Source of the DNA: Rhizobiaceae bacterium CPCC 101076
GTDB taxonomy: Bacteria > Pseudomonadota > Alphaproteobacteria > Rhizobiales > Methylopilaceae
Length of the DNA stretch: 64,000 bases
Assembly: GCA_003347645.1 (NCBI GenBank)
Contig: QDFX01000003.1
Span: 62,001 to 126,000 of the forward strand
Direction of reading: 5' to 3'
A model generated the notes under the pieces. It was not told the DNA's origin. It did no database searches and worked only from the letters and a program-made list of their open reading frames with translations. The position numbers and the translations under genes are program-made. Every line of letters starts with the position of its first letter. The stretch's first letter is position 1. Positions 4,434-42,770 of this stretch are shown here, piece by piece.

Positions 4434-4994
4434 ATGTCTTCCGCTTTCGACCTGGCCGAACTGAAGCGTCGCATGCAGGGCGCGCTGTCTGTTCTGAAGA
4501 CCGAACTGAGCGGCCTTCGCACCGGCCGCGCATCGGTAAATCTGCTCGACCCGATCAATGTCGATGCCTATGGCTCGCACATGCCGCTCAATCAGGTCGC
4601 TTCGGTCACCGTCCCGGAGTCGCGGATGTTGAACGTCCAGGTCTGGGATCGGTCCATGGTCGGTGCCGTCGAACGCGCGATTCGCGAGGCCAATCTCGGC
4701 CTCAATCCGATCACTGAAGGACAGCTTCTTCGGATCCCGATTCCGGAGTTGAATGCCGAACGCCGCGCCGAATTGGTCAAAGTTGGCCACAAATATGCAG
4801 AGCAGGCACGGATCGCGGTGCGTCATGTCCGCCGCGACGGTCTCGATCTTCTCAAGAAGCTCGAGAAGGATGGTGACATGACCGAGGACGATCAGCGCCG
4901 AGAGGCGGACCAGGTTCAGAAGGCGACCGATCAGTGCATCGCTGAGATCGACCAGCTGATGGCCGCCAAGGAAAAAGAGATCACCCAGGTCTGA
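4434..4994 (+). CDS. frr: ribosome recycling factor
   Basis: RRF, with EF-G, splits post-termination ribosomes. The 186-residue product (from the ATG at 4434) matches the family length of about 185. Signatures are [14 protein letters not shown] and the C-terminal coiled-coil [16 protein letters not shown], a classic RRF motif. An in-frame ATG at 4422 would add MGII; I prefer 4434 because of the family length and the GGGAA just before it. It completes the rpsB-tsf-pyrH-frr cluster, 42 bases after pyrH. Confidence 0.95.
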
Positions 4995-5017
4995 CGCGAG
5001 GAGCGTGGACGAAGCGG

Positions 5018-5782
5018 ATGAACGCAATCGAACGCAGAGCATTGGCTGAAGCCGCCTCCACGGGGGGCGGCTTTGTCGTGCCTGCACATGTCGCGATCAT
5101 CATGGATGGCAACGGCCGGTGGGCCGCCGCGCGCGGGCTGCCGCGTGTCGAGGGACATCGGCGCGGTGTCGAGGCGGTACGCGCGACGGTGCGGGCCGCG
5201 GGCGAACTCGGTATTCGGGTGCTCACTCTCTATTCCTTCTCCAAGGAGAACTGGAGCCGGCCGAAGAGCGAAATCTTCGACCTGATGAACCTTCTTCGCC
5301 GTTTCGTGCGTGAGGATCTGGCCGAGTTGCATCGTGCCGGCGTCCGCGTTCGCATCATTGGCGAACGCGACACGCTCGATGCGGACATCTGCTCCCTTAT
5401 CGAGGAGTGCGAAAGCCTGACGCGCGACAATACCGGGCTGACGCTGGTCGTCGCGTTCAACTACGGATCGCGCCAGGAGATGGCGCGTGCGGCTCAGTGC
5501 GTGGCAATGGACGTCGCTGCGGGCCGGCTGAAAGCCGAAGAAGTCACTCCCGATCATTTCAGCACTCGGCTCGACACCGCCGGCCTGCCGGACCCCGATC
5601 TGGTGATCCGCACCAGCGGCGAGCAGCGGCTGTCGAACTTCCTGCTCTGGCAGGCCGCCTATGCGGAGTTCGTTTTTCTGCCGATCCACTGGCCGGAATT
5701 CAACCGCGAAGCGCTCGAGCGCGCGTTGATCGAATTCTCGGGCCGTGAGCGCCGGTTCGGTGGGTTGGAAAGCCGTTCGTGA
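5018..5782 (+). CDS. uppS: isoprenyl transferase (undecaprenyl diphosphate synthase)
   Basis: This cis-prenyltransferase condenses isopentenyl diphosphate onto farnesyl diphosphate to make the undecaprenyl carrier used for peptidoglycan, O-antigen and glucan synthesis. In the 254-residue product, [13 protein letters not shown] (around residue 25) holds the catalytic Asp and phosphate-binding Asn/Gly/Arg. [12 protein letters not shown] follows, and [19 protein letters not shown] with FLPIHWPEF forms the C-terminal signature. It starts 24 bases after frr and overlaps cdsA by 4 bases, which implies translational coupling. Confidence 0.95.
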
Positions 5783-6474
5783 AGAAACCCGCCACGTTCA
5801 GAGGTGCTTCCGAACTTAAACTACGGATCATATCTGGCGTCGTGCTGGCCGCCATCGCCCTGTTCGTCGCCTGGGCCGGCGGAGCCCTGATCGTTCTGTT
5901 CTGGGGCGCGGCAGCAATCGGCCTTCTCGTGGAGTGGTGGAAGGTGACCAAACGTTCGGTCGCCTGGCTCGTCCCGGGAATGATCTACGCCGGCGTTGCG
6001 TTCGCTAGCCCTGTGCTGCTCAGGCTGGACGCTGCCTGGGGTCTGCCTGCCTTGCTTTGGTTGTTCGCCATCGTGTGGGGCAGTGACGTTTTTGCCTATA
6101 TCTGCGGTCGTTTGATCGGCGGCCCGAAACTCTGGCCGCGTGTGTCGCCCAAAAAGACATGGGCCGGGTTCATCGGCGGGACCGCGTTTGCGATCGCGGC
6201 CGGGTCGATGATTGCCTGGCTCGCTGGCGTAGCCTGGATTTTGCCCGTGTCGATCGTGAGTTTCTTCGCGGCCACCGCTTCCCAGGGCGGAGATCTCCTC
6301 GAGTCCTCCATCAAACGCTCATTCGGTGTAAAGGACAGCGGCAGCCTCATTCCCGGGCACGGCGGATTGATGGACAGGCTGGACGGCTTTGTGGCAGCTG
6401 GAGCCCTTGCGTTGGCGGTTGGCGTCTGGCGGGGAGGGGTGGCCCATGCCGGGCAGGGCCTTTTGGTTTGGTGA
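5779..6474 (+). CDS. cdsA: phosphatidate cytidylyltransferase
   Basis: CdsA makes CDP-diacylglycerol from CTP and phosphatidate at the inner membrane, the precursor for all phospholipids, including the phosphatidylcholine made by Pcs at 61959. The product is 231 residues and very hydrophobic. The family signature is intact: [12 protein letters not shown], then [10 protein letters not shown] and the C-terminal [19 protein letters not shown]. It is shorter than the E. coli enzyme (about 285) because N-terminal membrane spans are fewer. The start is GTG, overlapping the uppS stop as GTGA. The gene sits in its usual place between uppS and dxr. Confidence 0.93.
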
Positions 6475-6478
6475 CGAG

Positions 6479-7678
6479 ATGACTGAAATTTCTTCAACCC
6501 CCCGCAGCGTGACCGTCCTCGGCGTTACCGGATCGATCGGCCGCTCCACGGTCGATCTGCTTCTGGCTGAGCCTCATCGCTACGACGTCGAGGCCGTGGT
6601 GTCGGGAAACGATGTCACAGCGCTCGCCAACAATGCCAAGCAGTTGAAGGCCAAGCTCGCGGTCGTCGCGGATCCGGCAAAGTACCAGGCGCTCAAGGAT
6701 CTGCTCGCCGGCAGCGGCATCGAGGTCGCTGCGGGCGATGACGCCATGGCCGAGGCTGCCTCCCGGCCGGTCGACTGGACAATGGGTGCCATCGCCGGCA
6801 CCGCTGGCCTGCGTCCGACGATCGCCGCCGTCCGGCGTGGCGGCATGATCGCGCTGGCGAACAAGGAATGCCTCGTCTGCGCTGGCGATGCCTTCATGCG
6901 GGAGGCCGAGGAATCGGGCGCGGAAGTGCTGCCGGTCGACTCTGAGCACAACGCGATCTGCCAAGCGCTGATGGCCGGCAAGGCGGACGAAGTCTCCAAG
7001 ATCATCCTGACCGCTTCGGGCGGACCGTTCCGCACCTGGAGCAAGGAAGACATCGCGCGCGCCAAGCCGGAAAACGCCCTGAAACATCCGACCTGGTCGA
7101 TGGGCCGGAAGGTGACGATCGATTCCGCGAGCCTGATGAACAAGGGCCTGGAACTGATCGAGGCGCACCACCTGTTCAAGGTCGGGCTCGACAAGCTCGA
7201 CGTGCTCGTCCATCCGCAATCGGTCGTCCACGGTATCGTCAACTGGTCTGACGGATCCGTCGTTGCCGGTCTCGCGCCGGCCGATATGCGCGTGCCGATC
7301 GCGCATTGCCTTGGCTGGCCGGTTCGGCTGTCGACCCATGTGACGCCGCTCGATCTGGCAAAGGTCGGAACGCTGACGTTCGAGCCGGCTGACGAAGACC
7401 GCTTCCCCGCGCTGCGTCTCGCCAAGGCCGCATTGGCCGAGGGGGGCGGTGCTCCGACCGTACTGAATGCGGCAAACGAGATCGCCGTCGCGGCCTTCCT
7501 TGAGCACGGCCTCGATTTCTCCGGAATTCCGGCGCTTGTGGAGACCGTACTGGACAAGGCCAAGGGCGAAGGACTGGTCAGGGCGCCGCAATCCGTAGAG
7601 GATGCACTTAACCTTGATCGCGAAGCGCGGCGGATTGCACTTGCCAGTCTTAAGAGACCGATAGCACATGCTATCTGA
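6479..7678 (+). CDS. dxr: 1-deoxy-D-xylulose 5-phosphate reductoisomerase
   Basis: DXR converts DXP to MEP with NADPH, the committed step of the non-mevalonate isoprenoid pathway that feeds UppS. The product is 399 residues. The NADPH-binding loop GVTGSIGRST is at 15-24. ANKECLVCAGD and VDSEHNAICQAL give the metal- and substrate-binding residues, and the MNKGLELIEAHHLF helix follows. I start it at the ATG at 6479, 4 bases after the cdsA stop; the frame is open upstream, but that part only overlaps cdsA. The ribosome-binding site is weak, consistent with coupling to cdsA. Confidence 0.96.
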   Translation: MTEISSTPRSVTVLGVTGSIGRSTVDLLLAEPHRYDVEAVVSGNDVTALANNAKQLKAKLAVVADPAKYQALKDLLAGSGIEVAAGDDAMAEAASRPVDWTMGAIAGTAGLRPTIAAVRRGGMIALANKECLVCAGDAFMREAEESGAEVLPVDSEHNAICQALMAGKADEVSKIILTASGGPFRTWSKEDIARAKPENALKHPTWSMGRKVTIDSASLMNKGLELIEAHHLFKVGLDKLDVLVHPQSVVHGIVNWSDGSVVAGLAPADMRVPIAHCLGWPVRLSTHVTPLDLAKVGTLTFEPADEDRFPALRLAKAALAEGGGAPTVLNAANEIAVAAFLEHGLDFSGIPALVETVLDKAKGEGLVRAPQSVEDALNLDREARRIALASLKRPIAHAI

Positions 7679-7710
7679 TAGTCGGCCGGCCGAAGCATGG
7701 AAGTGAGACG

Positions 7711-8850
7711 ATGATCGAAAGCGTTTTTGCATTCGGCCAGGGAGCTCTGGGCTACATAGTCCCGTTCCTGCTGGTCCTGACCGTCGTCATCTTTTTCCAT
7801 GAGCTTGGACATTTCTTGGTCGCTCGCTGGTGTGGCGTCCGGGTGCTGGCGTTTTCGCTCGGTTTCGGTCCCGAGATCATCGGCTTCAACGACCGCCATG
7901 GAACCCGCTGGCGCCTCGCGCTGATTCCGCTGGGCGGCTATGTGAAGTTCTACGGCGACGAGAACGCGGCGAGCGCGCCGGACCGCGATAAGCTGGCCTC
8001 CATGGCCGCGCGCGACCGCGAGGTCAGTTTCTACGGGCAGTCGGTCGGCAAGCGTGCCGCGATCGTCGCGGCCGGCCCGATCGCCAATTTCATTCTCGCC
8101 ATCGTCATTTTCGCGATGACATTCTGGCTGCTCGGCCGTCCAGTGACAGAGGCGCGTGTCGACGCCGTTCAGCCGAACAGCGCCGCGGAACGCGCCGGCT
8201 TCCAGCCGAACGACGTGATAGTGTCGATCAATGGCGGACATATCGAGAGCTTCTCCGATATGCAGCGCATCGTCAGCATCAGCGCCGAGCAGCAATTGCG
8301 CTTCGAAGTGCGCCGCGGGGAGCAGACGATCCCGTTGACGGCCGTTCCGGAGCTGCAGGAGAAAAAAGACTCGTTCGGACAGGTACACCGGGTCGGGATT
8401 CTGGGAATCACCCGATCCGCCGATGCGTCTCAGGTTAAGCACCAGAGCTACAATATCGGTCAGGCCTTCGTCGCGGCGACTGAGGAGACCTGGTTCGTGG
8501 TCGAGCGGACGCTGGGCTATATCGGTGGCGTGGTGACCGGCCGCGAGAAGGCCGACCAATTGTCGGGTCCGATTCGCATCGCTCAGGTGTCCGGACAGGC
8601 CGCGCAAATCGGTATCGACGTCGTGATCAATCTCGCGGCGGTGCTGTCGATTTCGATCGGCCTTCTGAACCTCTTCCCGATCCCTCTGCTCGATGGCGGG
8701 CATCTTCTCTATTACGCCATCGAAGCCCTTCGCGGCCGGCCGCTCAGCGACCGCACTCAGGAATTCGGCTTTCGAATTGGGATCGCGCTCGTGCTGAGTC
8801 TGATGCTGTTCGCGACCTGGAATGACATCATCCATCTCACGACGCTGTGA
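7711..8850 (+). CDS. rseP: site-2 intramembrane metalloprotease RseP
   Basis: RseP cleaves membrane-embedded substrates such as anti-sigma factors and remnant signal peptides. The product is 379 residues. The zinc motif HELGH is at 30-34 in the first membrane span. One PDZ domain lies around 135-210 (core AERAGFQPNDVIVSING), and the second active-site segment LNLFPIPLLDGGH is near 315. E. coli RseP has two PDZ domains and about 450 residues, so this is the shorter single-PDZ form. It lies between dxr and bamA, as is usual, and is a plausible second protease for the anti-sigma factor encoded at 46797. Confidence 0.94.
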   Translation: MIESVFAFGQGALGYIVPFLLVLTVVIFFHELGHFLVARWCGVRVLAFSLGFGPEIIGFNDRHGTRWRLALIPLGGYVKFYGDENAASAPDRDKLASMAARDREVSFYGQSVGKRAAIVAAGPIANFILAIVIFAMTFWLLGRPVTEARVDAVQPNSAAERAGFQPNDVIVSINGGHIESFSDMQRIVSISAEQQLRFEVRRGEQTIPLTAVPELQEKKDSFGQVHRVGILGITRSADASQVKHQSYNIGQAFVAATEETWFVVERTLGYIGGVVTGREKADQLSGPIRIAQVSGQAAQIGIDVVINLAAVLSISIGLLNLFPIPLLDGGHLLYYAIEALRGRPLSDRTQEFGFRIGIALVLSLMLFATWNDIIHLTTL

Positions 8851-31460: not shown

Positions 31461-32003
31461 ATGTCTGTTGTACGAATTGATGGTCCTCAGATCGACGATG
31501 AAGCGCTGTTTCGCGATATCCAGGGGTCGGTCAACCACGAGGCGGAAGACCGGCCGAGCCTGGAAGCGTTGCTCAAACTGACTGCGCAAACTGTCGAACC
31601 AACAATGCCTACATCGGGGGGCGGACCGAGCCCGATCGATGGCATCGAGCGGGGCGCGCGCGATTTGCGCCTTGCAACCAAGATGTTGGAGCAAACGTCA
31701 GAGGTCCTCGTCTCCGCCGAACACGGTCTGGAGAATGCCTATCAGGCGCTCCGGGACGCGCAGATCGAGGTCGATTTCGCAAGCCACGCGCTGGCGAATA
31801 CGCTCGTCGCGCGCCTTGGAGCCGACGATCTGAACGCTGCCTTCGTGGAAAGTACGGCCGCGCTGAGCAGGCTCCAGCAGGCCGTCGACGATCTGAAGTT
31901 TAGCCAGGCCTGGTGCCAGTCGGCGTACGCATCATACGCGAAGAGCGTCACCTCCGAATCGACGCTTCGCGATGCGCTTCGAAAGGTCGGAGTGGCAAAT
32001 TGA
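31461..32003 (+). CDS. hypothetical helical protein
   Basis: This is a 180-residue soluble product I do not recognise. The first 70 residues look disordered (Pro, Gly and Ser rich: TSGGGPSPIDG). Residues about 75-175 are predicted helical with heptad-like spacing of Leu/Ala (LATKMLEQTSEVLVSAEHGL, ALSRLQQAVDDLKF), suggesting a coiled coil or helical bundle. There is no signal peptide or membrane span. The start ATG follows a strong GGGGAGG site. It is 60 bases before a secreted small protein on the same strand. Confidence 0.65.
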   Translation: MSVVRIDGPQIDDEALFRDIQGSVNHEAEDRPSLEALLKLTAQTVEPTMPTSGGGPSPIDGIERGARDLRLATKMLEQTSEVLVSAEHGLENAYQALRDAQIEVDFASHALANTLVARLGADDLNAAFVESTAALSRLQQAVDDLKFSQAWCQSAYASYAKSVTSESTLRDALRKVGVAN

Positions 32004-32063: not shown

Positions 32064-32486
32064 ATGTCGACAATCGTGAAACTGGCGCTCGCCTGCGCAG
32101 TCCAGTGCTTCGGCGGCAATGCGCTCGCGCAGACCACATTCAATCATCTCGATTGCTGGTTCGACGAAAGCGCGAGCCAGATGCGCTGCCCTGGCTCGCT
32201 CCCCATACAGAGCGGACGTGACGCACGTGTCGAACAGACTTTCGACATCGTCAGGGGCGAGCCGGCCTTATCGAACGGGCAAGACATGTCCGTTCAAGAA
32301 GCCAAGCCCGCTCCGGAAGCCAAATCCTCTACGGAAGCCAAGCCGGAACCCACGCGGTCAAATGAACGCGTGCGCCGGACGTCGACGCGCATGGCGCAAG
32401 CTCCGAGATGTACGCGGTACAGGACCTATAACGCAGCGACGGGTAGTTACCGAGGATATGACGGGGTGACCCGCGCCTGTCGCTGA
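32064..32486 (+). CDS. small secreted protein with BA14K-like C-terminus
   Basis: The product is 140 residues. It has a signal peptide about 1-23 (ALACAVQCFGGNALAQ), a middle region with EAKP repeats (residues about 79-96) and a C-terminal RCTRYRTYNAATGSYRGYDG plus a final Cys-Arg. That ending resembles the tyrosine-rich motif at the end of BA14K-type and other small secreted Rhizobiales proteins. Two Cys pairs (Cys31 and Cys41; two at the C-terminus) could form disulfides. A GGGAGG site precedes the ATG. Function unknown, probably periplasmic or surface. It is convergent with the GT2-GH17 gene. Confidence 0.65.
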   Translation: MSTIVKLALACAVQCFGGNALAQTTFNHLDCWFDESASQMRCPGSLPIQSGRDARVEQTFDIVRGEPALSNGQDMSVQEAKPAPEAKSSTEAKPEPTRSNERVRRTSTRMAQAPRCTRYRTYNAATGSYRGYDGVTRACR

Positions 32487-32501: not shown

Positions 32502-35174
32502 TCAGACCGTCGCGACGTCGTCGCGCGAACTCGCCAGAGCCGATGCCGGCTCCGCCACGACAGGAGCAGCCGCGTCGCGCGCGCGACGCCGGACGAAACC
32601 TCCGAGACCAGCGAGACGGGCCGTCTTCGCCGCGATGAACGCCGGATCGTTGAGCTTCGAACCCTCGACCCATGCAAGCCCGGCGGCCGCGAGGAAGGGC
32701 AGGGACTGAACCAGGAGAACGAGCGCGAAGATGTTCGTCTCGCGGACGTTCACGAAGTTCGTGCCCCAAACCAACGCTGCGCCAAGGACCAGAGCACTGC
32801 CCAGTCCGAGTTCCCAACGCGCCGGGAACTTGCGCGCCTTCACTCCCTTGCCGCCCTTGGCCGTGACGATGAACGGCATGTGCTGCTTCACCACCCATTC
32901 CGCGACGCCGCGGGCGACGGTGAACTGCAGCGCCATGGCGGCGATCGACGCGCCGATCGTTGACAAGAAGGGATGGCGTACCCGCAGCTGATAGAGCGAG
33001 AAGAAGTGGATCAGATAGATCGCGAAGCCAAACAGGATCGGGATCGTCAGCACCGCTTCCGGAATGGCGACGCCGCCAAACGCGATGACCGGAACCCAGA
33101 TCAGGTTCATGATGGCGATGGCGACGCCAATAGCCTCCGCACCCATCCAGTTCAGCCAGCCGATGAGATAGGTCCGGCGCTGCTCGGCGCTGAGGCGCGA
33201 GGCGCCCGGCTTGAACAGCCTGAGATGCTTCACCGCGATCTGCATGCCGCCGAAGGTCCAGCGGTGGCGCTGTTTGCGGAACGCCTCGAAATTGTCCGGC
33301 AGCAGGCCCCAGCCGTAGCGCTTGCGGGTGTAGTGCGCCGACCAGCCCTTTTCGAGGATGGTGAGGCCGAGATCGGAATCCTCGCAGATCGTGTCGGACG
33401 ACCAGCCGCCGGCATCGTCCATCGCCGCGCGGCGGAGCAGGCACATCGTGCCGTGGACGATGATCGCGTTCTGCTCGTTGCGTTCGACCATGCCGATGTC
33501 GAAGAAACCGGCATATTCGGTGTTCATCAGGCGGGCGAGAACGGTCCGCTCGCCGTCGCGGTGATCCTGCGGAGCCTGGACGATGCCGACGGCCGGATCA
33601 GCGAAGGCCGGAACGAGGTCCTTCAGCCAATCCGGCGAGACCACGTAGTCGGCATCGATGATGCCGATGATGGTCGCTTCCGGAGCAGTGTGCTCCAGGG
33701 CGAGGCGCAGGGCGCCGGCCTTGAAGCCCTCAAGCTTCATGGCGTTGACGAACTTGAAGCGATCGCCGAGCAGGCGGCAATGCTCCTCGATCGGCTGCCA
33801 GAACTCGGGATCGGGCGTGTTATTGATGACGACCACGCACTCGAAGTCCGGATATTCGAGCGCGGCGACGCTATCGAGCGTCTTGATCAGCATGTCCGGC
33901 TGTTCGCGATAGGCCGGGATGTGGATCGATACCTTCGGCGTCTGCGCCACGGCCGGATCCTGGCCGTCCAGCGTGCGCCGACCCTTGCGGCCGAAGGCGA
34001 TAGCCGAGATTTCCTCGATGCGGCTGAGGATCACAACCGCGAGCGGGGCGAGCAGGAGCGAGCCGATCACCATTGCGATCTGGGCGCCGAAGACGAAATA
34101 GTGCGTCAGCCAGTGGTCGATCAGGATCGCCGCCCAGGCACCGACGAGGTTCGCCGCGCCGGCGAGGAGCACGCATTGCGCGAAAGTCGGCCGCCGCGTG
34201 CCGATGATCGGCAGTGAGAGCAGGAAGCCGATCAGCAGCGCGACGATCATGCTCTGCGTGAAGGTCTTGTCCTCGATCTCGCCGGAAAGCGGGAATTTCA
34301 GCTGGCGGTCGGCGTCGAGCACGCCCCAATAGGGACCGACGCTGCCTTCGAGCACGCCTTTCCACGGCTGATCGAGGGCCTCGACGATGTTGTAGTCGAT
34401 GCCGCGCGCACGGGCGCGATTGGTGAATTCGCGGATGAGTTCGGCCTGCAGCAGTTTGCCGGTCGTCGAATTGTTGCGGTTGAAGCCCGCGGACGGCCAG
34501 CCGAACTCGGCGATCACGATGTGCTTGCCCGGGAACGCCTTGCGAAGGCGCTCGTAGATGTCGAGCGTCAGGTCGACGGCCTTATCGGCCGGCACGCTTT
34601 CCCAATAGGGCAGGATATGGACGGCGATGAAGTCGACTGCCGAAGCGAGCTGCGGATATTCGAGCCAGACGTTCCAGATTTCACCAGTGGTGACCGGAAG
34701 CGAGGTCCGCTGCTTCACCTTGTTGATGAGCGCGACCATCTCGTCGACGGTCTTTTCGCCGCGGAGCACCACTTCGTTGCCGACCACCAGCGCCTTGACG
34801 TTGGGGTTGCGGTCGGCGACCACCAGCGCGCTGTCGATCTCGCGGGTGTTCCGGACCTCGTCCTTGTCGATCCAGATGCCCTGCGTGACCTTCAGGCCCT
34901 TTTCGGCGGCGAGAGGGGCGACCACGTCGAGGCCGCGCGTCGCGGAGTAGGTACGGATCGCGTCGGTATACGGAGCAACCGCCGCGATGTCCTTGCGAAC
35001 CTGTTCGGGATTTACGTCAGCATTCTCGCCGTCCTCATCCTTGCCGTAGGGCGAGAACGAAAGGCTCGTGAACTTGTGGGGAGCGGCCGGTGCCTCCGCG
35101 ACGGGACGGCTCCAGAGCCAAAGGGCTGCGTGAAGCCCGGTGACCAACGCGAGAGCGGCGAGGACGACACGCAT
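32502..35174 (-). CDS. GH17-GT2 fusion, beta-glucan synthase (NdvB-like of Bradyrhizobium)
   Basis: This 890-residue inner-membrane protein joins a glycosidase/transglycosidase to a processive glycosyltransferase. An N-terminal anchor is at 3-22. The periplasmic GH17 domain spans about 35-300 with acid/base Glu134 (VGNEV) and nucleophile Glu223 (AEFGWPS). Two or more membrane spans (about 308-385) follow. The cytoplasmic GT2 domain spans about 410-645, with DAD at 507-509, Glu598-Asp599 (CEDSD) and QRHRW at 635-639. C-terminal spans and a tail end the protein. Architecture and size fit the synthase for cyclic beta-(1,3),(1,6)-glucan reported in Bradyrhizobium. The exact linkage is inferred. 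Confidence 0.85.
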   Translation of the reverse strand: MRVVLAALALVTGLHAALWLWSRPVAEAPAAPHKFTSLSFSPYGKDEDGENADVNPEQVRKDIAAVAPYTDAIRTYSATRGLDVVAPLAAEKGLKVTQGIWIDKDEVRNTREIDSALVVADRNPNVKALVVGNEVVLRGEKTVDEMVALINKVKQRTSLPVTTGEIWNVWLEYPQLASAVDFIAVHILPYWESVPADKAVDLTLDIYERLRKAFPGKHIVIAEFGWPSAGFNRNNSTTGKLLQAELIREFTNRARARGIDYNIVEALDQPWKGVLEGSVGPYWGVLDADRQLKFPLSGEIEDKTFTQSMIVALLIGFLLSLPIIGTRRPTFAQCVLLAGAANLVGAWAAILIDHWLTHYFVFGAQIAMVIGSLLLAPLAVVILSRIEEISAIAFGRKGRRTLDGQDPAVAQTPKVSIHIPAYREQPDMLIKTLDSVAALEYPDFECVVVINNTPDPEFWQPIEEHCRLLGDRFKFVNAMKLEGFKAGALRLALEHTAPEATIIGIIDADYVVSPDWLKDLVPAFADPAVGIVQAPQDHRDGERTVLARLMNTEYAGFFDIGMVERNEQNAIIVHGTMCLLRRAAMDDAGGWSSDTICEDSDLGLTILEKGWSAHYTRKRYGWGLLPDNFEAFRKQRHRWTFGGMQIAVKHLRLFKPGASRLSAEQRRTYLIGWLNWMGAEAIGVAIAIMNLIWVPVIAFGGVAIPEAVLTIPILFGFAIYLIHFFSLYQLRVRHPFLSTIGASIAAMALQFTVARGVAEWVVKQHMPFIVTAKGGKGVKARKFPARWELGLGSALVLGAALVWGTNFVNVRETNIFALVLLVQSLPFLAAAGLAWVEGSKLNDPAFIAAKTARLAGLGGFVRRRARDAAAPVVAEPASALASSRDDVATV

Positions 35175-35316
35175 GCGGCTTTAACTTGCCTTTCGGGAAG
35201 CCCCTACTAGGGGCGAGAGCATCATTACACCTAAAAGCTTTGGCAGGGCAGTACTGAACCGCATATGAACGGCCGAACCGTGCATCTGGATCCATCTGCG
35301 CCCAAAAGCCGCTGCT

Positions 35317-35775
35317 TTATTCTTGGGCAGGTCGCTTTTCGGGATTGGTCCAGCAGCTGTAGACTCGGGCGTTCAAGTCATTCTGGTCCGGTTTGCTCTC
35401 GCTCTCCTCGATTACGCACCGAAATGCGACAGGAAGATGAGCGGCCGGGCAGCCAAACATTTCATAGAAACGGTTCTGCTCGCGAGCCGTGTTCACATCG
35501 TCCCGCCACAGCAAGCTCATGATGCGTTGGCCGGTCCACTCGCATTCCGCGCGTCGCCAGGGTTGGGCGACGATGTCGGGCTTTTCCGCGGGCGTGGTTG
35601 CCGCGGCAGGAGCGGCGGCGGGCGCTTGCGTGGGCGAAGTGGCAGGCGTCTGGGCGGGCGCCGCCGGCGTTGCGGCGGGTTCCGCTGGCTTGGCGGATTG
35701 GGCCAGGACCGGAAGGCTGGAAGAGCACAGCGCGAGCGCGCCGGCGAAGAGATACGCAGGGAACAATGAACGCAT
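35317..35775 (-). CDS. small secreted Pro/Ala-rich protein of the glucan locus
   Basis: The product is 152 residues. The signal peptide is about 1-26 (ending SLPVLAQ). An Ala-Pro-Thr-rich linker follows (about 27-68), then a compact C-terminal domain of about 80 residues with four Cys (AECEW, FGCPAA, RCVIEE, YSCW), which may form two disulfides. I use the ATG at 35775 where the signal peptide begins. It lies between the GT2-GH17 gene and the divergent GH17 gene, the position where ndvD is described in Bradyrhizobium. That is a parallel of place only; NdvD is larger. Function unknown. Confidence 0.7.
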   Translation of the reverse strand: MRSLFPAYLFAGALALCSSSLPVLAQSAKPAEPAATPAAPAQTPATSPTQAPAAAPAAATTPAEKPDIVAQPWRRAECEWTGQRIMSLLWRDDVNTAREQNRFYEMFGCPAAHLPVAFRCVIEESESKPDQNDLNARVYSCWTNPEKRPAQE

Positions 35776-35921
35776 TTTAGGAACTGACGCCCAGCCGGAG
35801 GGAATTTGGGACAGATGCACCGACAAGTTTGTCGCTTTCGCGACAAGTCCCGACAAGCGCCACCCGCTTGAGAATTAAACTCTAAATGTTTATCGACCGG
35901 CAAATCCAAAGTGAGGCCGAC

Positions 35922-37526
35922 GTGCCATTTCGCCTGTCTTTAGCGCTTCTTGCTCTCTCGATCGCCCTCATAGCCGGCTTTTGGTGGTGGATGGGGCGTC
36001 CGATCGACATGCCGCCGTCGCCGCTTGCTGAAAACGCAAAGGTGCCATGCGTTTCCTATGCGCCGTTCAGGCGGGGACAGTCTCCGTTCACCGAAACGAT
36101 CGTCATTCCGAAAGAGCAGATCGACGACGATTTCGCGCGGTTAAGCAAGATCACAGATTGCGTCCGACTTTACGCCGTCGACCAGGGTCTGCAGGTGGTC
36201 CCGGAGCTCGCGCGCAAGCATGGGCTTCAGGTCATGCTCGGCATCTGGATCGGCCGTAAGGACATCGACAACCGCAAGCAGATTGAGACGGCCGTAGACC
36301 TGACGAACGCCTATAAAGATGTCGTCAAGCTCCTCATCATCGGCAACGAGGTGCTGCTGCGGGGTGAGCAGAGCGAAGAAAATCTCGGAAAGATTCTTCG
36401 CGAGGTCAAATCGCGGGTCTCGGTTCCGACGACCTATGCCGATGTCTGGGAGTTTTGGCTCCGCCACAAGGCGCTGGCGAACGACGTCGATATCGTGACG
36501 GTCCATATCCTTCCTTATTGGGAGGATGAGCCGGTCGCGGCGGAGCTCGCAGGCGCGCACATCGACGAAATCCGCGCCCATGTCGGCGAGGAATTCCCGG
36601 GCAAGCGTATTCTCATTGGCGAGACCGGCTGGCCGAGCGAGGGCCGTTCACGCTGGGAAAGCCGCTCCACACCTGCGGCGCAGGCGCGCGTCCTGCACGA
36701 CATCCTGGCCTTCGAGAAGAAAAGCGGCGTCGAGGTCAATCTGATCGAGGCGTTTGACCAGCCTTGGAAGCGGCTGCTCGAAGGCACAGCCGGCGGTTAT
36801 TGGGGCCTGCTCGACGCCGATAGTCGCGAACCGAAATTCCAATGGGGCGAACCGATTTCGAACCATCCCGGCTGGATATGGCAGGCGGCGATCGGATGCG
36901 CGCTGTCAATCCTGATTTTCGCGGCGGCCGGCTGGCGTCTGTCGGAAACGAGGTCCTGGCTGGCGGTGGCCGCAATCGCGACCGTCGCGGGCGGAGCGCT
37001 CGGCCTCACAGTTCATATGCAGGCGGTCGGCGCGCGTTCGACCTTCGAACTGGTGCGCTCGATCCTCTATCTGGCGGTGGCCGCCGGAGTGCCTGTCCTG
37101 GCGGCTGCGGCAATCGGCCGTGGCGTTGGGGCGGCCAGGCTGGAACAGGTCTTCGGCCCCGGCCGAGCGACAGGGTTTCAGCGTAGCCTTACTCTGGCCG
37201 TCGCCGCGACGGCGGTACTTGCGACCTATTTCGCGCTCGGCCTGGCCTTTGATGCCCGGTATCGGCAGTTCGAATACGCGACGCTGGTCGGCCCCGCCGC
37301 CAGTCTTCTATTGGTCAGCCTGCTCGCGCCGCGTGAGGCAGGTTTGAGCGAGCGGATGTTCGCGCTGATCCTGACTGCTTGTGCGGTCGCTATCGTTATC
37401 GAGGAGCGGATCGTCAATCTTGACGCGGTCGCGCTGTCGGTAGTCTTGCTTATCCTGGCTGGGGCTTTGTGGCTCGGGCGGGTCGTGCAAACACGAGCGG
37501 CAACAGCGCCAGTGCCAGCGCGCTGA
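35922..37526 (+). CDS. membrane-anchored GH17 protein (NdvC-like)
   Basis: The product is 534 residues from the GTG at 35922, chosen because GTGAGG at 35911-35916 precedes it and the membrane anchor starts at once; an ATG at 35886 would add 12 residues. The anchor is about 5-25. The GH17 domain is about 40-310 with acid/base Glu143 (IIGNEV) and nucleophile Glu234 (GETGWPS). A C-terminal block of about six or seven membrane spans follows (about 315-525). Size and fold match NdvC of Bradyrhizobium, a membrane transglycosylase thought to make beta-1,6 branches. It is divergent from the synthase gene. Confidence 0.82.
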   Translation: MPFRLSLALLALSIALIAGFWWWMGRPIDMPPSPLAENAKVPCVSYAPFRRGQSPFTETIVIPKEQIDDDFARLSKITDCVRLYAVDQGLQVVPELARKHGLQVMLGIWIGRKDIDNRKQIETAVDLTNAYKDVVKLLIIGNEVLLRGEQSEENLGKILREVKSRVSVPTTYADVWEFWLRHKALANDVDIVTVHILPYWEDEPVAAELAGAHIDEIRAHVGEEFPGKRILIGETGWPSEGRSRWESRSTPAAQARVLHDILAFEKKSGVEVNLIEAFDQPWKRLLEGTAGGYWGLLDADSREPKFQWGEPISNHPGWIWQAAIGCALSILIFAAAGWRLSETRSWLAVAAIATVAGGALGLTVHMQAVGARSTFELVRSILYLAVAAGVPVLAAAAIGRGVGAARLEQVFGPGRATGFQRSLTLAVAATAVLATYFALGLAFDARYRQFEYATLVGPAASLLLVSLLAPREAGLSERMFALILTACAVAIVIEERIVNLDAVALSVVLLILAGALWLGRVVQTRAATAPVPAR

Positions 37527-37848
37527 GCTGGGTGTTCTGGACGACGACGCCGTAAAGGCCGAAGGCAAGTGCGATAGCGAAGCCGAGCACGGACGGACGC
37601 GCGAGCGTGATGGCGGCTGCCGCGACAGCGATGCTGCCAAGCACGAGATATTCGAACAGGAAGATGACGCCACCACGATAGAAGCAGGTGAGTGTCTTCG
37701 CGCCCGCCTGACATGCGAGGCCGACTGCCGACGGCTCAATGATCCAGTAGCGGGTGTAGAGCGCCAGTGAGAGCGATAGCGCGCCGACGACGACGAGGAT
37801 CAGTGCCGAGGACTTGCTCGGCCGCCAGGCAGTGGTTGAACGGATCAT
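37450..37848 (-). CDS. small multi-span membrane protein of the glucan locus
   Basis: This is a 132-residue product with about four membrane spans (around 15-35, 58-78, 82-98 and 102-118) and two Cys in the loop after the first span (GLACQAG, LTCFYRG). I use the ATG at 37848 (MIRSTTAWRPS). Its 3' end overlaps the convergent GH17 gene by 77 bases. The hydrophobic pattern is regular and keeps to one frame, which supports a real gene. I do not recognise the family; position suggests a role with the glucan enzymes. Confidence 0.65.
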   Translation of the reverse strand: MIRSTTAWRPSKSSALILVVVGALSLSLALYTRYWIIEPSAVGLACQAGAKTLTCFYRGGVIFLFEYLVLGSIAVAAAAITLARPSVLGFAIALAFGLYGVVVQNTQLSALALALLPLVFARPARATKPQPG

Positions 37849-37900
37849 TGGTCCCGCACTCGAAGAGGGCCAGAGCCATAGCGGGCCGAACTGAAAAATC

Positions 37901-38794
37901 CTAGCCCGGCGGCAGCGACTGACCGTCATATAGTCCGCCGTCACAGGGTGTTCCGGCCGCGATCAGGGCCGCGCACGTCTTCGCCGCGTCGGCGGCATTG
38001 ATGTACGGGCCGACAACGAGGTGAAGCTCGACGCTGCCGTTGGCGTCGCGGATCGTCACCTGGGGCGACAGCTTCTCCAGCATCTTGTGTTTCTTGCGGA
38101 GCTGCTCCCACTTGGCGCGCAAAGCGCCGAGCGACGTGTCCTTGGCGAGGTCGAGGCCAAACGAGGTCCGGCTGATTGGTGAAGGAGCTGGCGCAGCGGT
38201 GGTCTGAACCGGTGCGGTCGTGGCGGGAAGCGGGGCGAGGGCCGGCGGCGCAGGGGCTGCCTGGACGGGTGGTGGGGCCGCAGGAATTGCCAGTGGCGCC
38301 GGAGCCGGCGGCACCTGCGGGGTCGCCATCGGCGGCACCTGAGCAGGCGGCTGGCTGACCGAAGGCGTCGCGCTCGACCGCATCTGCGGCGTGCTACCGG
38401 CCTGCTGCGACGCCTGTTTGGCGATCGAACCGGTAATACCGCTCAACTGCTCTTCGAGCGCCTTGACGCGTGCGAGGAGGCGATCGTTCTCGATCTGCTG
38501 CGGATCCTTGTCGAACCTAGTCAGCATGCTCTCCGTCGATTCCATGCGCTCGGCGCGCATCGGAATGTCCGGCAGGTCTATGTTGACGGGCGTCGTCATC
38601 GCCACCGATATGCGGCGGTCCGCGCCGGGCATGAAACACACACCTATTGCGGAGATCACCGCTGCGATGGTGAAAAACCCCCAGACCACGTGTAGAGACG
38701 ACGTCGCGTCCGAACGCGCCAGCCGCTCGATGAGCGGCGACGGCTTGGGACGGCGGACGGGTTCTGGTTGAGCAGCCTGGTCAGTCACGGCCAT
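37901..38794 (-). CDS. membrane-anchored proline-rich protein with SPOR-like C-terminus
   Basis: The product is 297 residues. The cytoplasmic N-terminus is about 35 residues, with one membrane span about 38-56 (VVWGFFTIAAVISAIGVCF). A short coiled coil follows near 100-120 (ENDRLLARVKALEEQL), then a long Pro/Ala linker (about 130-210). The folded end (about 215-297) has VTIRDANGSVELHLVVGPY and two Cys, like a SPOR-type domain that binds denuded peptidoglycan. The ATG at 38794 is preferred to the in-frame TTG nine bases upstream. Its place between the glucan genes and glmU suggests an envelope role. Confidence 0.65.
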   Translation of the reverse strand: MAVTDQAAQPEPVRRPKPSPLIERLARSDATSSLHVVWGFFTIAAVISAIGVCFMPGADRRISVAMTTPVNIDLPDIPMRAERMESTESMLTRFDKDPQQIENDRLLARVKALEEQLSGITGSIAKQASQQAGSTPQMRSSATPSVSQPPAQVPPMATPQVPPAPAPLAIPAAPPPVQAAPAPPALAPLPATTAPVQTTAAPAPSPISRTSFGLDLAKDTSLGALRAKWEQLRKKHKMLEKLSPQVTIRDANGSVELHLVVGPYINAADAAKTCAALIAAGTPCDGGLYDGQSLPPG

Positions 38795-38882: not shown

Positions 38883-40235
38883 ATGAGCAGCCGAACTTGT
38901 CTGACGGTGATCCTCGCAGCCGGCGAGGGGACGCGCATGCGTTCGTCTCTTCCGAAAGTGCTCCATGCCGCTGCCGGACGCTCCCTGCTCGGGCATACGT
39001 TGAGTTCGGCGCGGGACGCCGGCGCGGAGAGGCTTGCTGTCGTCGTCGGGCCGGGGCGGGAAGACGTTGCCGGAGAGGCGAGGAAATACGCGGCCGACTC
39101 CGCGATCTTCGTCCAGCGCGAACGGCTCGGGACCGCCCATGCGGTGCTGGCGGCCCGAGACGTTCTGACTAAGCCCGCCGATGATCTGTTGATCGCCTTT
39201 GCCGATACGCCGCTGGTCAAGCCCGAGACGCTGACGCGCATGCGCGAAGCGCTGGCGGACGGCGCGGATGTCGTCGTACTGGGCTTTCAGGCCGAGAACC
39301 CGTTCGGCTATGGGCGCCTCGTCGTGAAGGATGGCCAACTGACAGCAATCCGCGAGGAGAAAGACGCGACGGACGAGGAGCGCGCGATCCGGTTCTGCAA
39401 TGCTGGGCTGATGGCGATCGCGGGCAAGAGCGCTCTCTCGCTGATCGAGACGGTTGGGAACGACAACGCCAAGAGCGAATATTATCTGACCGACGTCGTC
39501 GAGATCGCGCGCCAGAAAGGTCTTCGTGCCGTCGCGCTCGAGGCTTCCGAAGCTGAGGTCCAGGGCGTCAATACAAAGGCACAGCTTGCCGCCGTCGAGG
39601 CGGAATTTCAGAAGCGGCTGCGCTCGGCTGCTCTGGAACAAGGGGTGACGCTCATCGCCCCGGAAACCGTATTCTTCTCCGCCGACACCGTGCTCGGACA
39701 TGACGTGATCGTCGAACCGAACGTCGTGTTCGGGCCCGGCGTCCGCGTCGAGGACAATGTCGTCATCCATTCCTTCTGCCATCTCGAAGGCGCGCATGTC
39801 GGACGCGGCGTTTCGCTTGGGCCGTTCGCCCGGCTTCGCCCCGGTGCCTCGCTCGCGGAAAAAACCCGCATCGGCAATTTTGTCGAGATCAAGAACGCGA
39901 TCCTGGACGAAAACGTGAAGGTCAATCACCTGGCCTATATCGGCGACGCCCACGTCGGCCGCGACGCGAATATCGGCGCGGGCGCTATCACCTGTAACTA
40001 CGACGGCGTCCGCAAGCATCGCACCGAGATCGGCGCGGGTTCGTTCATCGGTGTGAACTCTGCCCTGGTCGCTCCGGTGACGGTGGGCGAGGGAGCCTAT
40101 ATCGCAACCGGCAGCGTCATCACCGACGACGTTCCTGCCAATGCTCTCGGCATCGCGCGCGGTCGGCAGGTCAACAAGGAGGGCTGGGCGGACGAGCGCC
40201 GCAAGAGCGCGCCACCGAAGCTCAGCCACGATTGA
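38883..40235 (+). CDS. glmU: bifunctional UDP-N-acetylglucosamine pyrophosphorylase / glucosamine-1-phosphate N-acetyltransferase
   Basis: GlmU makes UDP-GlcNAc for peptidoglycan and for LpxA in this same window. The product is 450 residues. The N-terminal uridylyltransferase has [18 protein letters not shown] (residues 10-27) and [11 protein letters not shown]. The C-terminal left-handed beta-helix acetyltransferase (about 250-450) has [21 protein letters not shown] and [14 protein letters not shown]. The gene overlaps the next start by one base (TGATG). glmS follows after a LysE-type gene. Confidence 0.96.
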
Positions 40236-40946: not shown

Positions 40947-42770
40947 ATGTGCGGTATCGTTGGAATTCTAGGGTCTAAACCTGTCGCGCCGCAGATCGTC
41001 GATGCGCTGAAGCGGCTGGAATACCGAGGCTACGATTCAGCCGGCGTCGCCACTCTCGAACGCGGCGAACTCGAGCGCCGCCGCGCTCCGGGCAAACTGA
41101 AATTCCTCGAGGAGAAGCTGGAGCTGGAGCCGCTCAGCGGCTTCGCCGGCATCGGCCACACCCGCTGGGCGACTCATGGCGCGCCGAACGAGCGGAACGC
41201 CCACCCCCATGCGACAGAGCGTGTGGCGGTCGTCCATAACGGCATCATTGAGAACTTCCGCGAACTGAAAGAAGAGCTCCTCGACTTCGGAGTGAACTTC
41301 CAGAGCGACACCGACACCGAGGTCGTGGCGCAGATGGTCAACCGGGAGCTGGATGCCGGCAAGACGCCCGAGCTGGCGGTTGCTGCCGTGCTTGCCCGCC
41401 TTCGTGGTGCGTTCGCGCTCGTCTTCCTGTTCAAGGGAGAGGACGATCTGATGATAGGCGCCCGCCGGGGCAGCCCTCTCGCGGTCGGCTATGGCGACGG
41501 CGAGATGTTCTTCGGCTCGGACGCCATTGCGCTCGCGCCGTTCACCGACCAGATTTCCTATCTCAACGATGGCGACTGCGCGATCGTCACCCGCCGTGGC
41601 GTGAAGGTCCGCGACTGCGACGGTTCGGGCGTCGCCGTCTCTCGTCCCGTCCAGCGCTCGCTCGCCAATGCGGCGATGATCGACAAGGGCAATTACCGGC
41701 ACTTCATGGCGAAGGAGATCGCCGAGCAGCCGGAGGTCGTCGGCCACACGCTCGCGCATCACCTCGACATGGCGAACATGCGTGCCAGGGTGCCGGACGG
41801 TATCGATTTCGCGACGCTCGATCGCCTGGCCATCTCGGCCTGTGGCACGGCCTTCTATGCCGGTCTCGTCGCCCGCTACTGGTTCGAGAAGTTCGCGCGG
41901 ATGCCGGTCGACATCGATATCGCCTCCGAATTCCGCTACCGCGAGCCGCCGCTGAAAGAGGGCGGGCTTGCGATCATGATCTCGCAGTCCGGCGAGACGG
42001 CCGACACGCTTGCGACTTTACGCCATTGCCGCGAGCAGGGCATGCAGATCGCCAGCGTCTGCAACGTGCCGACATCGACGATCGCGCGCGACTCCGACGC
42101 CGTCCTGCCGACGCTTGCCGGCCCCGAGATCGGCGTGGCGTCGACCAAGGCCTTCACCTGCCAGCTTGCGACGCTTGCCGCGCTCGCGGTTGCCGCCGGG
42201 CGGGCACGCAAGGTACTGACGGCCGAGGATGAATTCCGTCTCGTCAACGCGCTGATCGAGGTGCCGCGACTGATGACTGAGACGCTGAAGCTCGAGCCGC
42301 AGATCGAGAGACTGGCCAAGACCTTCGCGCATTCGCGCGACGCTCTCTATCTCGGCCGCGGCACGAGCTATCCGATCGCGCTCGAAGGTGCGCTCAAGCT
42401 CAAGGAAATCTCCTACATCCACGCCGAGGGCTATGCTGCCGGCGAGCTCAAGCACGGGCCGATCGCGCTTATCGACGAGGACGTGCCGGTCGTCGTCGTC
42501 GCGCCGTTCGACCAGCTGTTCGAGAAGACCGTCTCGAATATGCAGGAGGTGCAGGCGCGCGGCGGCAAGGTCGTTCTGATCACCGACGCCGAGGGCGCGA
42601 TCGTTGCCGGCGAGACGTTCGAGACTTTGATCGTGCCGACGTCCTATGCGTTCGTGTCGCCGCTGATCTACGCCATCCCCATGCAGCTGCTCGCCTATCA
42701 TACGGCGGTCTTTATGGGCACGGACGTCGACCAGCCTCGCAACCTCGCGAAATCAGTCACGGTGGAGTGA
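40947..42770 (+). CDS. glmS: glutamine-fructose-6-phosphate aminotransferase (isomerising)
   Basis: GlmS makes glucosamine-6-phosphate from fructose-6-phosphate and glutamine, the entry to amino sugar synthesis. The product is 607 residues. The N-terminal nucleophile Cys is at 2 (MCGIVGILG). The glutaminase domain is about 1-225 (HTRWATHGAPNERNAHPH). Two SIS sugar-isomerase domains (about 285-600) follow, with SQSGETADTLATL and GRGTSYPIALEGALKLKE. It ends in the invariant KSVTVE. A GGAG site precedes the ATG. No glmS ribozyme is seen in the 73-base leader. Confidence 0.97.
   Translation: MCGIVGILGSKPVAPQIVDALKRLEYRGYDSAGVATLERGELERRRAPGKLKFLEEKLELEPLSGFAGIGHTRWATHGAPNERNAHPHATERVAVVHNGIIENFRELKEELLDFGVNFQSDTDTEVVAQMVNRELDAGKTPELAVAAVLARLRGAFALVFLFKGEDDLMIGARRGSPLAVGYGDGEMFFGSDAIALAPFTDQISYLNDGDCAIVTRRGVKVRDCDGSGVAVSRPVQRSLANAAMIDKGNYRHFMAKEIAEQPEVVGHTLAHHLDMANMRARVPDGIDFATLDRLAISACGTAFYAGLVARYWFEKFARMPVDIDIASEFRYREPPLKEGGLAIMISQSGETADTLATLRHCREQGMQIASVCNVPTSTIARDSDAVLPTLAGPEIGVASTKAFTCQLATLAALAVAAGRARKVLTAEDEFRLVNALIEVPRLMTETLKLEPQIERLAKTFAHSRDALYLGRGTSYPIALEGALKLKEISYIHAEGYAAGELKHGPIALIDEDVPVVVVAPFDQLFEKTVSNMQEVQARGGKVVLITDAEGAIVAGETFETLIVPTSYAFVSPLIYAIPMQLLAYHTAVFMGTDVDQPRNLAKSVTVE

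Follow-up and report, generated by a model that had tools for sequence, protein, structure and literature searches.

Gene content of the block

The window analyzed here is a stretch of 64,000 nucleotides from Rhizobiaceae bacterium CPCC 101076 (contig QDFX01000003.1, positions 62,001 to 126,000 of the forward strand), and our subject is a block of four genes at its positions 32502 to 37848. These genes encode an NdvB-type cyclic beta-glucan synthase (B; 32502..35174, minus strand), a small and presumably secreted NdvD-like protein (d; 35317..35775, minus strand), an NdvC-type GH17 enzyme (C; 35886..37526, plus strand), and a protein with four predicted membrane spans (m; 37450..37848, minus strand). 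The convergent 3′ ends of C and m overlap by 77 bp (37450..37526).

The B protein is a fusion of 890 residues, as a preliminary description of this DNA had proposed, and combines a GH17 domain (residues ∼37 to 300) with a processive GT2 domain and flanking membrane spans. Its GT2 part matches Pfam at 5.5e-28 and carries the D-x-D, E-D, and Q-x-x-R-W motifs of processive (BcsA-like) GT2 enzymes; D507, D509, E598-D599, and QRHRW (635 to 639) are intact and invariant among the aligned relatives. The C protein, described earlier as a divergent membrane GH17 protein of 534 residues, has that length when counted from GTG 35922, which offers the better ribosome-binding context, and 546 residues when counted from ATG 35886. 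It has an N-terminal anchor and a C-terminal membrane domain with multiple spans by simple hydropathy, and it is 41 to 50% identical to the proteins at the same place in Bradyrhizobium and Ancylobacter. Because the PF00332 scores of the two GH17 proteins (23.8 and 19.7 bits) fall under the curated cut-off of 28.2 bits, the GH17 assignment of B and C rests on matches to solved structures, with the B domain aligning to the GH17 transferase of R. miehei (4wtp) at 5e-29 and a profile of C aligning to the same structure at 1.4e-33. Both catalytic Glu residues are indeed kept in each domain and lie in the V/I-G-N-E and E-x-GWPS contexts. They are E134/E223 in B and E155/E246 in C, invariant across 27 and 28 aligned sequences, respectively. 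In the phmmer alignment, E223 of B falls opposite a position of the R. miehei enzyme that is Glu in chain 4wtp and Ala in chain 4wtr.

The d protein most likely starts at ATG 35775 and ends at 35317 (152 residues), with a single hydrophobic segment near its N terminus (residues 7 to 25) by simple hydropathy. Its helical core, which contains four invariant Cys residues (78, 109, 120, and 141), was modeled with a predicted local distance difference test score (pLDDT) of >90, while the N-terminal half has low confidence. The m protein comprises 132 residues from its ATG and has four spans by simple hydropathy together with a predicted periplasmic loop that bears two invariant Cys residues. Its invariant positions are R32, C45, C54, and N104 (Cys numbering of alignment A2), and its structure model reached a pLDDT of 92 and a predicted template modeling score of 0.80. 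Neither d nor m matched a Pfam or NCBIfam family, gave a convincing sequence match in the PDB, or returned a fold below an E value of 1 when searched with Foldseek against the PDB. For m, VIA-align gave weak helical-bundle rows only (best Z, 5.2), including leukotriene C4 synthase at a Z of 5.0 and a root mean square deviation of 9.5, and these are not taken as kinship.

Both small proteins are under purifying selection like B. The ratio of nonsynonymous to synonymous substitution rates (dN/dS) in close pairs was 0.04 to 0.21 for d and 0.01 to 0.39 for m outside the overlap, comparable to 0.04 to 0.29 for B. The possibility that m is a spurious reading frame antisense to C is ruled out by its conservation outside the overlap, its purifying selection, and its occurrence away from C.

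Conservation, co-occurrence, and rearrangement

Scanning one-per-species genomes with C yielded 80 loci in relatives, 68 of which hold the complete block with B and d on one strand, C on the other, and m again on the strand of B. Of the remaining 12, seven sit on contigs that are short or clipped and miss end genes only, and five are lone paralogues of C in Bradyrhizobium. Such constancy of order is far beyond chance. The complete blocks were found in Bradyrhizobium, Afipia, Xanthobacter, Azorhizobium, Ancylobacter, Aquabacter, Pseudolabrys, and other Hyphomicrobiales, and the strands and order of B, d, and C are identical in Bradyrhizobium, Xanthobacter, Ancylobacter, Azorhizobium, and others. 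The resemblance to Bradyrhizobium NdvB and NdvC in size, domains, and order that had been pointed out earlier was thereby confirmed, since the same block occurs there in the same orientation. The comparison of the small secreted protein with ndvD also stood, with d on the minus strand between B and C and a homologous gene at the same place in Bradyrhizobium, where it encodes ∼190 to 260 residues depending on the start. Chen et al. in 2002 reportedly described NdvD as a protein of 26.4 kDa with a single transmembrane domain, its gene lying between ndvB and ndvC; as a small protein with one membrane segment at this position, d fits by place and by homology to the gene found there in Bradyrhizobium.

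In B. diazoefficiens SZCCT0138, B and C are the only two GH17 matches of the genome. No additional, separate ndvBDC locus of the classical type emerged from a search of Bradyrhizobium, and the extra matches were lone C paralogues. These second NdvC paralogues, present in some Bradyrhizobium (L058, 8001-9602; L071, L073, L084, L088, and L206), form their own clade and have no adjoining B, d, or m.

The 3′ ends of m and C overlap in 74 of 75 loci, and the length of this convergent overlap (mostly 35 or 41 bp, against 77 bp in the window) is unusually stable across distant genomes.

A profile survey across 397 genomes of the order found C in 34 genomes, m in the identical 34, and d in 33 of them (missing from G103); neither m nor d occurred in any of the 363 genomes without C. 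The corresponding Fisher values are 5.5e-50 and 2e-47, uncorrected for kinship. Three families (f1, f31, and f41) contain genomes with and without the genes, and in each of these genomes C and m are either both present or both absent. A second survey covered 167 genomes of the class, in which m was present in 13 of the 15 genomes with full-length NdvC (the NdvC of the window itself left out of the count) versus 0 of the 151 without. It was also absent from all nine genomes whose C-type protein has a different C terminus and from all nine that have B only. When 112 NdvC-type proteins were placed on a tree, those of the class that come without m grouped in a single clade (support, 99), among them the two full-length exceptions (G448 and G571), and the lone paralogue of Bradyrhizobium made up the second m-less clade. 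Across the class, m is thus limited to genomes with one NdvC clade, and the simplest reading is an old, single association of m with this clade followed by joint loss or transfer.

Rearranged genomes are a stronger argument for m than the Fisher values. The block is split in three genera of family f44 (G070, G106, and G135) and in G495, where B stays with d and C stays with m. Elsewhere m is separated from C, lying next to B with C ∼10 kb off (G438 and G553), ∼2 kb from C (G443), or on a different contig (G529). In G103 (L131, 6417-11344), m begins in the last codons of B, with an overlap of 4 bp, and converges on C. No d was detected in this genome, alone among the 34, and m and ndvB may be translationally coupled there. 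The pairings in the split loci suggest that d assists NdvB and that m assists the NdvC membrane domain.

Beyond m lie a gene for a SPOR-like, membrane-anchored protein (S; 37901..38794/38803, minus strand) and then glmU (38883..40235, plus strand) and glmS (40947..42770), which together mark the chromosomal place adjoining the block; all three are neighbors outside the counted glucan system. The preliminary description had grouped S with d and m as three further envelope genes that might serve glucan synthesis, with a neighborhood survey as the check. In that survey, the order-wide one above, secreted d (33/34) and multispan m (34/34) held up as companions of the GH17 genes, while S did not. 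It is present in 253 of the 397 genomes, in 27 of 34 with C and in 226 of 363 without (Fisher, 0.06), and on this distribution it is rejected as a specific part of the glucan system. Six opened genomes without ndv genes (G030, G302, G057, G127, G055, and G010) have S adjoining glmU, and it therefore belongs to the glmU neighborhood, next door to which the ndv block lies. The SPOR domain (PF05036) is matched weakly by 18 of 27 S relatives (best, 1.2e-4), while the S protein of the window gave no match. In a sister genus without the ndv block (g2), S directly adjoins opgG (MdoG), as seen in L139 (G010; 4800-7025), L122 (G009; 6421-8718), G008, and G012, and in G010 opgG occupies the place beside S-glmU-glmS where the window has the ndv genes. 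The opgG gene is present in all ten genomes tested in the family of the window. S may be linked to periplasmic glucans in general.

On the other side of the block, a 140-residue secreted-looking protein with a BA14K-like tail (subthreshold; 32064-32486, plus strand) is convergent with ndvB. This protein and the open reading frame at 31461-32003 were considered as parts of the locus and ruled out, as no homologue was present in any relative locus fetched.

A candidate fourth component

The sequence evidence points, with good though not complete confidence, to the block at 32502-37848 as an ndvBDC-type locus for cyclic beta-(1,3),(1,6)-glucan in which m would be an overlooked fourth gene. The locus is of a known kind, in a new species, with m a strong candidate for a fourth component. 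The literature found on ndvC and ndvD, a coverage with mostly no subscription journals, names no fourth ndv gene and contains no description of m.

We propose that the cytoplasmic GT2 domain of NdvB would polymerize UDP-glucose into beta-1,3-glucan and pass it through its own membrane channel, and that the periplasmic GH17 domain would cut the chain, transfer it, and close the ring. NdvD (d) would act as a periplasmic helper of NdvB, putatively stabilized by disulfides, and NdvC would be a membrane-held GH17 transferase adding beta-1,6 linkages. The m protein, probably a partner of the NdvC membrane domain to judge from its genomic associations, would associate with that domain and be needed for the assembly or activity of NdvC. 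Here we infer the product made by the organism of the window, the disulfides, the topology, and the contact between m and NdvC. A more specific version, which we favor slightly over its denial, is that m is a dedicated membrane partner of NdvC required for forming or placing the beta-1,6 linkages, so that two modules, NdvB-NdvD for ring synthesis and NdvC-m for the 1,6 linkage, would operate in a large part of the Alphaproteobacteria.

Several observations weigh against this interpretation. The presence of m on the NdvC tree requires only two or three changes, so much of the m/C pattern goes back to one old association passed on by common descent, and the Fisher values make the independent evidence look larger than it is. 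The lone NdvC paralogues of Bradyrhizobium have no adjoining m, although the main locus of those genomes carries it, and G103 has no detectable d. The m genes of G438 and G553 were missed by the genome search, which makes absences less certain than presences. The match of d to NdvD is drawn from locus position and homology, and the role of m, in this organism and elsewhere, is a predicted one.

The small number of changes on the tree would also suit an m that is a bystander, kept beside ndvC since the overlapping 3′ ends cannot be separated undamaged, and the near constancy of the overlap fits such an explanation as well. We nonetheless regard it as rather unlikely, as m is kept when it is apart from C, be it beside B (G103, G438, and G553), at some distance (G443), or on another contig (G529), and an independent nonglucan gene should sometimes outlast the loss of C, while m is found in no genome without NdvC. 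The conserved Arg and two Cys residues in the predicted periplasmic loop of m could instead belong to an enzyme or carrier in its own right, for example one that adds a substituent such as phosphocholine or moves the glucan or a precursor; the cyclic glucans of B. japonicum are reported to carry phosphocholine. This too appears unlikely for a protein of 132 residues with no recognizable catalytic motif and no family or convincing fold match, and NdvC genomes should lack a substituent gene more often than they lack m.

A further question concerns the product, which the sequence does not reveal, and the GT2 domain is that of a generic processive synthase; a linear or branched beta-1,3-glucan, curdlan-like or capsular, might therefore be made rather than a cyclic periplasmic one. 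Cyclic glucans are the reported product of the Bradyrhizobium orthologues (PMC3927601, PMC4070871), and the retention of both Glu residues in the GH17 domains of the two enzymes likewise leaves a noncyclic product improbable. We give very little credence to the reading of the preliminary description, in which all small genes including S form one module for the glucan and its anchoring to the wall. The adjacency of S to m in most Bradyrhizobium loci and those of relatives, and to another periplasmic-glucan gene, opgG, in genus g2, speaks for it, but S is also common in genomes without NdvC and stands beside glmU in the six genomes without ndv genes.

Cyclic beta-(1,3),(1,6)-glucans are reportedly required for effective soybean nodulation and for the osmotic fitness of Bradyrhizobium. 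If m is a component of the system, it is a concrete missing part, which is present with one NdvC clade (the two full-length NdvC exceptions fall outside it) and follows NdvC where the locus breaks. An attempt to reconstitute the system from NdvB, NdvC, and NdvD might then fail because m is lacking.

Comparison with known systems

The name ndvB is also given to the Sinorhizobium gene, whose product likewise makes cyclic periplasmic glucans but is an unrelated enzyme of ∼2,850 residues. Its marker domain was found in four of five tested genomes without the locus in the family of the window and in none of five with it. RmBgt17A, the GH17 beta-1,3-glucanosyltransferase of Rhizomucor miehei (4wtp, 4wtr), shares the GH17 domain, both Glu residues, and the GWPS motif, while it is fungal and, unlike B and C, has no membrane or GT2 domain. 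The Pseudomonas NdvB or “Orphan” GH17-GT2 synthase PA1163 has the same two-domain build as B, and passages of its description propose a periplasmic GH17 domain that would re-cut and join the glucan made and exported by the enzyme, with the GT2 domain in the cytoplasm (PMC10237404). Those passages place PA1163 next to dapE and name neither NdvC nor NdvD nor m as the product of a partner gene.

For the beta-1,6 linkages, the GH17 module Glt20 of B. diazoefficiens is reported to carry out beta-1,6 elongation or branching (PMC11005184), and a further paper, with titles cited therein, treats NdvC as a beta-1,6-glucan synthase or as a protein that influences the 1,6 linkages (PMC10514313). The Bradyrhizobium literature has B, D, and C all required for the glucan and C for its 1,6 linkages.

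The closest counterpart is the ndvB-ndvD-ndvC locus of Bradyrhizobium japonicum/diazoefficiens (Group 4 or Family III osmoregulated periplasmic glucans), where the three genes are adjacent in that order (PMC3927601, PMC4070871). The USDA6 genome paper prints same-strand (blr) tags for ndvB, ndvD, and ndvC of USDA110 (PMC3927601), the only paper among the literature found to print these tags, and they conflict with every Bradyrhizobium main locus read, in which B and d lie opposite C. The window shares with this system the same fusion, small protein, and membrane GH17 enzyme in the same order and orientation, and no functional difference is apparent. Three genes have been named in the literature on the Bradyrhizobium locus, and m is present there too.

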